From: Micromonospora eburnea
Lineage (GTDB): Bacteria; Actinomycetota; Actinomycetes; Mycobacteriales; Micromonosporaceae
DNA length: 64,000 nt
Assembly: GCF_900090225.1 (NCBI RefSeq)
Contig: NZ_FMHY01000002.1
Location: forward strand, 6,324,001-6,388,000
Reading direction: 5' to 3'
The notes below the pieces were generated by a model. The model was not told the origin of the DNA. It saw only the letters and a program-made list of their open reading frames with translations, and made no database searches. This document shows positions 1,102 through 1,652 of the stretch, in pieces; position 1 is the stretch's first letter; each line of letters opens with the position of its first letter. A program made the translations under genes and the position numbers.

Positions 1102-1131
1102 TTGCGCGCCCCGCCCGCCGGTCGGCATACT
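1102..1131 (+). promoter_or_regulatory. Promoter for the aroQ leader transcript
   Basis: A TTGCGC box at 1102-1107 and a CATACT box at 1126-1131 are separated by 18 nt, as in a sigma-70/HrdB-type promoter. Transcription should start about 7 nt downstream, at or next to the GTG at 1139. The leader peptide would then be translated from a leaderless mRNA, which fits the absence of a Shine-Dalgarno sequence. This is inferred from sequence only. Confidence 0.55.
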
Positions 1132-1138
1132 CGACGGC

Positions 1139-1204
1139 GTGTTCGGTCAGCGCTTCTACTTTTACTACGGCACCGGGAGTCCGGCAGCCGTAGGTCGCGC
1201 CTGA
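1139..1204 (+). CDS. Leader peptide rich in Phe/Tyr codons, upstream of aroQ
   Basis: A 21-codon reading frame starts at GTG 1139 and ends at TGA 1202-1204. Codons 6-10 (1154-1168) read Phe-Tyr-Phe-Tyr-Tyr and codon 2 is Phe, so six of 21 residues are the end products of the chorismate mutase branch. The frame lies between a promoter and an intrinsic terminator, with aroQ next. This is the layout of a transcription attenuator such as pheL of enteric bacteria. No Shine-Dalgarno is visible; the start probably coincides with the 5' end of the mRNA. It is too short to have another obvious function. The regulatory role is inferred. Confidence 0.65.
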   Translation: MFGQRFYFYYGTGSPAAVGRA

Positions 1205-1251
1205 TCAACAGACCTGCGAAAGCCCCGGGCTCCTGGAGCCCGGGGCTTTTT
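1176..1251 (+). promoter_or_regulatory. Attenuator: alternative antiterminator and terminator hairpins before aroQ
   Basis: The terminator is an 11-bp perfect stem (arms 1221-1231 and 1237-1247, 5-nt loop) followed by a run of T. Bases 1176-1184 inside the leader frame can pair with 1225-1233, the left terminator arm, with eight Watson-Crick pairs and one G-U pair. This would block terminator formation. A third small stem (1192-1196 with 1211-1215) spans the leader stop codon. Mutually exclusive structures next to aromatic codons suggest ribosome-stalling control. The exact mechanism is not proven by sequence. Confidence 0.6.
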
Positions 1252-1298
1252 CGTCCCGGGATCCGGGCAGCGGGGCCCGAGACCCGAAGGGTACGACG

Positions 1299-1652
1299 AT
1301 GATGACTGACGTGGTGGAGTCCAGCGGTAGCCTGGCGCGGCACGACCAGCCGAACGAGACAGACCCGACCGGGGCCGCGACGGCCCGGACCGGCACCGAC
1401 GACTCGGCCGCGGCCGAGCGGATCGTGGCCATCCGGGAGCGGATCGACGAGATCGACCGCACCATCGTCGCGCTCTGGCAGGAACGCGCCGCCCTGTCCC
1501 AGGAGGTCGGAGCCACCCGGATGGCCGCCGGCGGGACCCGGCTCGTGCTCTCCCGGGAGCGGGAGATCCTGGAGCGGTTCCGTCAGGCGCTCGGCGCGGA
1601 CGGCACCCAGCTCGCGCTGCTGCTACTGCGTGCCGGCCGCGGACCCCTGTGA
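1299..1652 (+). CDS. aroQ: Chorismate mutase, AroQ type
   Basis: Converts chorismate to prephenate, the committed step to phenylalanine and tyrosine. The 117-residue protein has a variable acidic N-terminus of about 40 residues, then a single AroQ helical domain with RIDEIDRTIVALWQERAAL, a central SREREILERF helix and a C-terminal LLRAGRGPL. It resembles the short cytosolic enzymes of actinobacteria such as Rv0948c. That enzyme is known to be weak alone and activated by DAHP synthase; the same partnership is likely here but not shown. The start ATG at 1299 follows a GAAGG box by about 8 nt. The upstream attenuator suggests control by charged tRNA-Phe/Tyr. Confidence 0.92.
   Translation: MMTDVVESSGSLARHDQPNETDPTGAATARTGTDDSAAAERIVAIRERIDEIDRTIVALWQERAALSQEVGATRMAAGGTRLVLSREREILERFRQALGADGTQLALLLLRAGRGPL

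Follow-up and report, generated by a model that had tools for sequence, protein, structure and literature searches.

Leader-peptide attenuation is a textbook mechanism, and in Escherichia coli the pheL leader senses Phe only, has a Shine-Dalgarno sequence and lies before the gene for a fused chorismate mutase-prephenate dehydratase. Chorismate mutase is the first enzyme of the Phe/Tyr branch and serves Phe and Tyr, not Trp. Control of pheA by pheL is described for enteric bacteria (PMC11802643), and in Corynebacterium glutamicum the AroR leader, which contains Phe-Tyr-Phe, stands before aroF (PMC11802643, citing Neshat et al. 2014; PMC4046766, PMC7356990). Actinobacterial leader peptides without a ribosome-binding site have also been reported (PMC8079986; ilvBNC reference in PMC4046766), a comparative survey of attenuators across actinobacteria deals with Trp, Cys and branched-chain genes (PMC1262725), and a list of eight leader peptides from Streptomyces lividans includes none at a chorismate mutase gene (PMC8079986). 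We found no description of a leader at an actinobacterial chorismate mutase in the open-licence literature, an absence that is weak evidence because the search was limited to open-licence papers.

The region upstream of aroQ in Micromonospora eburnea is, on our reading of its sequence and that of its relatives, very probably a ribosome-mediated transcription attenuator of a chorismate mutase gene that senses Phe and Tyr. Its kind of mechanism is known from pheL and from corynebacterial AroR, while the chorismate mutase case seems to be undescribed. Like pheL-pheA of E. coli, it combines a leader rich in aromatic codons with a terminator/antiterminator switch and would control a chorismate mutase activity; unlike pheL, the leader has both Phe and Tyr codons and no Shine-Dalgarno sequence, and its target is a monofunctional AroQ. 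It shares with AroR an actinobacterial leader peptide carrying Phe-Tyr-Phe before a gene of the aromatic pathway, but AroR controls DAHP synthase, not chorismate mutase, and is described as responding to Phe limitation. The leaderless leader peptides of ilvB, trpE and leuS (PMC8079986, PMC1262725) resemble its predicted arrangement in being short frames at the mRNA 5' end that lack a Shine-Dalgarno sequence and are followed by hairpins, but they involve other amino acids and other genes.

Methods

All coordinates refer to the window, the whole 64-kb stretch of DNA analysed. Chorismate mutase relatives were drawn from two sets of genomes and gave 110 loci, 109 of which were parsed by one rule; some genomes are present in both sets, and the leaders comprise 92 different sequences. 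A covariance model, R1, was built from 38 diverse leaders. Covariation was counted on a 38-sequence alignment, and scores were compared with those of 500 shuffles.

Results and discussion

A conserved aromatic leader precedes aroQ

The putatively regulated gene (Table 1) matches PF01817 (E 9.7e-11), and the solved structures closest to its product are those of the mycobacterial chorismate mutase Rv0948c and its kin. The neighboring gene, at positions 1 to approximately 1000 on the minus strand, is divergent from the aroQ promoter, which leaves the terminator between promoter and aroQ without any preceding gene that it could serve to end. The promoter proposed in the initial annotation reads directly from the sequence with its 18-nt spacer; in upstream listings the -35 element is seen as CTTGCG in nearly all Micromonosporaceae loci, and the ATACT of the -10 element is found in all 109 parsed relatives.

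Table 1. Positions of the features of the aroQ leader region in the window.
Feature	Position	Strand	Basis
-35 element TTGCGC	1102..1107	+	sequence; upstream listings of relatives
-10 element CATACT	1126..1131	+	sequence; relatives
Leader peptide frame of 21 codons from GTG, then TGA; lacks a Shine-Dalgarno; predicted to lie at or beside the mRNA 5' end	1139..1204	+	frame and start spacing kept in 109/109
Control codons TTC TAC TTT TAC TAC (Phe-Tyr-Phe-Tyr-Tyr)	1154..1168	+	relatives; position-by-position codon table
Hairpin 1 (1:2), 1165-1171 CUACGGC with 1187-1193 GCCGUAG, inner 1173-1176:1181-1184	1165..1193	+	pair cells formed in 38 sequences; energies
Antiterminator (2:3), helix 1173-1184:1225-1236 enclosing 1189-1196:1211-1218	1173..1236	+	covariation; folding
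Intrinsic terminator (3:4), stem 1220-1232:1236-1248 plus T run	1220..1251	+	paired cells in 38 sequences
aroQ, chorismate mutase (AroQ, mycobacterial Rv0948c type), putatively regulated gene, start codon ATG	1299..1652	+	PF01817; nearest PDB 2qbv/5hub

The previously noted leader frame was likewise borne out in its length, its run of five aromatic codons and its GTG start 7 nt past the -10 element; it ends at TGA 1202-1204 and encodes M(V)FGQRFYFYYGTGSPAAVGRA. On both strands of the window, it is the sole ATG or GTG frame of 8-45 codons with five consecutive aromatic codons. Given the spacing from the -10 element to the start codon, transcription probably begins at, or within 1-2 bases of, the GTG. 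We strongly infer, for both the mRNA 5' end and translation, a leaderless mRNA on which the leader is translated without a Shine-Dalgarno sequence.

Comparison across Micromonosporaceae favors the original proposal, both in the conservation of the aromatic codons and in the lack of a Shine-Dalgarno sequence at the leader. In all 109 parsed loci the leader frame is open, no motif resembling a Shine-Dalgarno sequence stands before its start, and the peptide contains three to six Phe/Tyr codons and no Trp, a codon content that matches the pathway because chorismate mutase feeds Phe and Tyr but not Trp. The start lies 7 nt (101 loci) or 6 nt (8 loci) after ATACT and is GTG in 107 loci and ATG in two. 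Leader length is 60, 63 or 66 nt and so differs only by whole codons, whereas the gap from stop codon to terminator varies by single bases between 20 and 26 nt, as expected for a translated frame. At the one locus outside the parse rule (L103, from a metagenome-assembled genome), the leader, VTCQAWHYFTYGSGSPAAGGHV, has diverged further but occupies the expected position. Model R1 matches 199 of 201 Micromonosporaceae genomes and 43 of 44 genera, including every one of the 185 genomes that are at least 90% complete with at most 5% contamination; in the subset of genomes compared by eye, each match adjoins aroQ on its upstream side. Conservation this strict makes the element well suited as a natural test of whether leaderless translation can drive attenuation.

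The RNA is predicted to form a complete set of competing helices

The sequence can form the helices of a classical attenuator. The terminator described at 1221-1251 is present as an 11-bp core (1222-1232:1236-1246) that reaches 13 bp (1220-1248) when two A-U pairs are counted and is followed by TTTTT. In most relatives its T run is moderate, with 3-5 T in nine positions, and in the Actinoplanes group it is weak (CTTGATG). The alternative pairing 1176-1184:1225-1233 also exists, but the reported 9 bp fall short of its full extent, 1173-1184:1225-1236, a 12-bp helix that includes two G-U pairs. Two further helices were absent from the initial annotation: 1165-1171:1187-1193, which belongs to hairpin 1 and overlaps the control codons, and 1189-1196:1211-1218, which is nested in the antiterminator and shares bases with hairpin 1, so that the two compete. 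With strands 1 (1165-1171), 2 (1173-1196), 3 (1211-1236) and 4 (1236-1248), the parts form the full 1:2, 2:3 and 3:4 layout, and the mechanism is complete only once hairpin 1 and the inner helix are added. Region 1130-1260 folds 4.3 standard deviations below dinucleotide shuffles, and the fold of 1173-1236 scores -36.8, compared with -22.9 +/- 3.0 for 1000 shuffles, none of which is as low.

A terminator opposed by a competing helix would suit any antitermination signal, and the same terminator could in principle be used by a protein, by a T-box or by a metabolite-binding leader instead of a translating ribosome. We consider such sensing highly improbable: none of 4227 Rfam families, T-box included, reaches its gathering score at the locus, and the upstream part is a conserved reading frame in which Phe and Tyr exchange and indels span whole codons, features that a purely RNA- or protein-sensed leader would not require.

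Covariation supports the antiterminator and the terminator

Compensatory change was sought in both helices of the switch, as the first reading of the locus had advised, and both covary beyond all 500 shuffles. Across the 38 sequences the antiterminator helix is paired in 88.9% of cells, with its outer three pairs poorly conserved; 11 cells have both sides changed, and no shuffle of 500 matches either this count or the covariation score. The terminator helix is paired in 97.2% of cells and shows 10 further pair types. Pair 1177-1232 occurs as G-C in 27 sequences, A-U in eight, G-U in two and C-G in one and is never broken; on the tree of aroQ coding DNA it has changed six times. In the Actinoplanes group base 1232 falls within the terminator loop, and the change at this pair is therefore not accounted for by the terminator. 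In the same 38 sequences, hairpin 1 is paired in 98.1% of cells with covariation just slightly above the shuffles, and the inner helix is paired in 87.4% with no covariation beyond them.

These data bear on another account, in which the leader is translated and a constitutive, partial terminator only sets the level of aroQ without any response to Phe or Tyr. Such an arrangement would leave unexplained both the compensatory change in the antiterminator and the placement of the aromatic codons at an exact distance from hairpin 1, and of all the accounts weighed here we regard it as the least probable, with hardly any chance of being right.

Constraint on the leader tail falls mainly on the RNA

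The most conserved part of the peptide is its tail, GTGSPAAVGRA, which raises the prospect of nascent-peptide arrest, whereby the tail would stall the ribosome from within the exit tunnel, perhaps with free Phe or Tyr as ligand, and the codons would matter less. The bases conserved in the tail, however, coincide with hairpin 1 and the antiterminator, and the third positions of paired codons hardly vary: codons 12, 15 and 17, within or beside helices, are near-invariant even at their third positions, and at codon 16, where the third base is left unpaired, GCA, GCT and GCG interchange freely. When the same peptide was recoded at random with synonymous codons at local usage, 42 of 2000 sequences gave an antiterminator no less stable than the real one. 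In Streptomyces-like relatives, offsetting one-base indels yield tails reading NRPAGCHGRAA or TGPSGCHGRAA with the hairpin intact, and in one such relative (L146, positions approximately 250-330) a single inserted base throws off the frame, and with it the tail, beyond the aromatic codons, again with hairpin 1 intact. Because third positions follow pairing and indels alter the tail while sparing the hairpin, the conservation of the tail appears to reflect mostly constraint on the RNA, and we judge arrest by the peptide very unlikely.

A proposed kinetic switch that would respond to Phe and Tyr

In silico, when 1165-1171 is masked, as by a stalled ribosome, in RNA extending to 1236, the lowest-energy structure is the antiterminator including its inner helix (approximately -37 kcal/mol), and when a ribosome is placed at the stop codon the terminator is the only stable fold. 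In the full-length leader, however, the terminator is favored at equilibrium in every masked state, and control must therefore be kinetic, as is usual for known attenuators. Unmasked RNA ending at 1236 also prefers the antiterminator, so hairpin 1, as the first structure to form, is likewise assumed to protect kinetically.

With its elements, their conservation and covariation, the mutual exclusivity of the helices and the order of folding in silico in view, attenuation sensed by the translating ribosome would proceed as follows. Transcription would start at or near GTG 1139, and the leader peptide would be translated without a Shine-Dalgarno sequence. When charged tRNA-Phe and tRNA-Tyr are ample, the ribosome would clear the five aromatic codons and reach UGA 1202, covering approximately 1188-1216; this UGA sits within the loop that the inner helix closes, and a ribosome ending translation there would therefore cover that helix. 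With 1189-1196:1211-1218 blocked, no antiterminator would form, and the terminator at 1220-1248 would halt transcription before aroQ. When tRNA-Phe or tRNA-Tyr is short, the ribosome would stall at 1154-1165 and cover 1165-1171, preventing hairpin 1; strand 1173-1196 would then pair with 1211-1236 once this is transcribed, seizing the left arm of the terminator and letting RNA polymerase continue into aroQ. Where translation fails altogether, hairpin 1 would form and sequester strand 2, and the terminator would follow. On this scheme, charged tRNA would very probably control termination in response to Phe and Tyr.

The leader in its own genome and in other actinobacteria

Within its own genome, R1 finds only the aroQ locus, with no second copy above noise; an antisense match there is the palindromic terminator and not a second element. 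Regions upstream of pheA and of the class II DAHP synthase gene in this genome lack an aromatic leader. As the target is a monofunctional aroQ and the genome's own pheA has no such leader, the element does not belong to the pheL family, taken as a homologous leader before pheA.

Beyond Micromonosporaceae, R1 also matches directly upstream of chorismate mutase in family f4, a family of the same class with large, Streptomyces-like genomes, where leader peptides such as MLTHPTFLFTYGNRPAGCHGRAA start approximately 6 nt past CATACT. All 21 of the f4 aroQ upstream regions examined have the same leader, two of them with fewer aromatic codons. Family f2 belongs to the order of Micromonosporaceae, and within its genus g45 five of six genomes (L164, L165, L167, L169, L170) have an aroQ leader reading VLDKRRFFYGYRSAVPVV or a close variant, which starts 7 nt after a GGCACACT-like -10 element and has a strong hairpin 1; four of these five have a hairpin resembling a terminator, with a poor T run, and L165 has lost it. 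The remaining f2 genera examined have no such leader, and some appear to start aroQ itself at the promoter. The switch, of an ordinary kind and very well supported, has an unexpectedly wide range, extending throughout Micromonosporaceae, with related forms in Streptomyces-like and other actinobacteria. It would give large antibiotic-producing groups (Micromonospora, Actinoplanes and Streptomyces-like genomes) and, as a variant, family f2 a definite means of controlling chorismate mutase, and its removal or retuning would be a direct route to altered flux toward products derived from Phe and Tyr.

Several details of f2 and other loci stand apart. The tail codons of the g45 leader form a near-perfect hairpin, UACGGGUACCG with CGGUGCCCGUG. 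In the relatives L177 and L180, aroQ itself appears to begin right behind a promoter of similar kind, as though the entire attenuator were gone. At L166 and L171, in f2 genus g46, a short frame beginning MVCPFVKQPLRLC occupies the leader position without an aromatic cluster, and the conserved TCTGTTTCACGGTGAA(G/A)GAACT comes after it; this may be another type of control element.

In distant actinobacterial classes, R1 matches precede DAHP synthase genes (MRDYFWFYGTSGSPEADAR, MKRYFWFFGTSGSPEADAS). When 30 DAHP synthase regions were checked with a threshold of three aromatic residues in six, approximately 22 yielded a credible aromatic leader, a few of which may be due to chance; 18 of these leaders carry Trp, as against none of 109 at Micromonosporaceae aroQ. 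It is possible, and we put it forward tentatively as a little short of an even call, that an old, phylum-wide aromatic attenuator of one lineage ([FY]-[FY]-Y-G plus hairpin) serves both DAHP synthase in distant classes (Phe/Tyr/Trp) and Actinomycetia chorismate mutase (Phe/Tyr). Were this so, codon content would track the amino acids fed by the controlled enzyme.

Weak R1 matches such as those at L118, L122, L123, L124, L126, L127 and L131 have no matching gene or peptide and were set aside as chance matches to a GC-rich terminator. Aromatic leaders before DAHP synthase in distant classes were seen at L119, L121, L135, L184-L188, L191, L194-L199, L201, L202, L207, L208 and L210, mostly with Trp plus Phe/Tyr, and several of them have terminator hairpins downstream.
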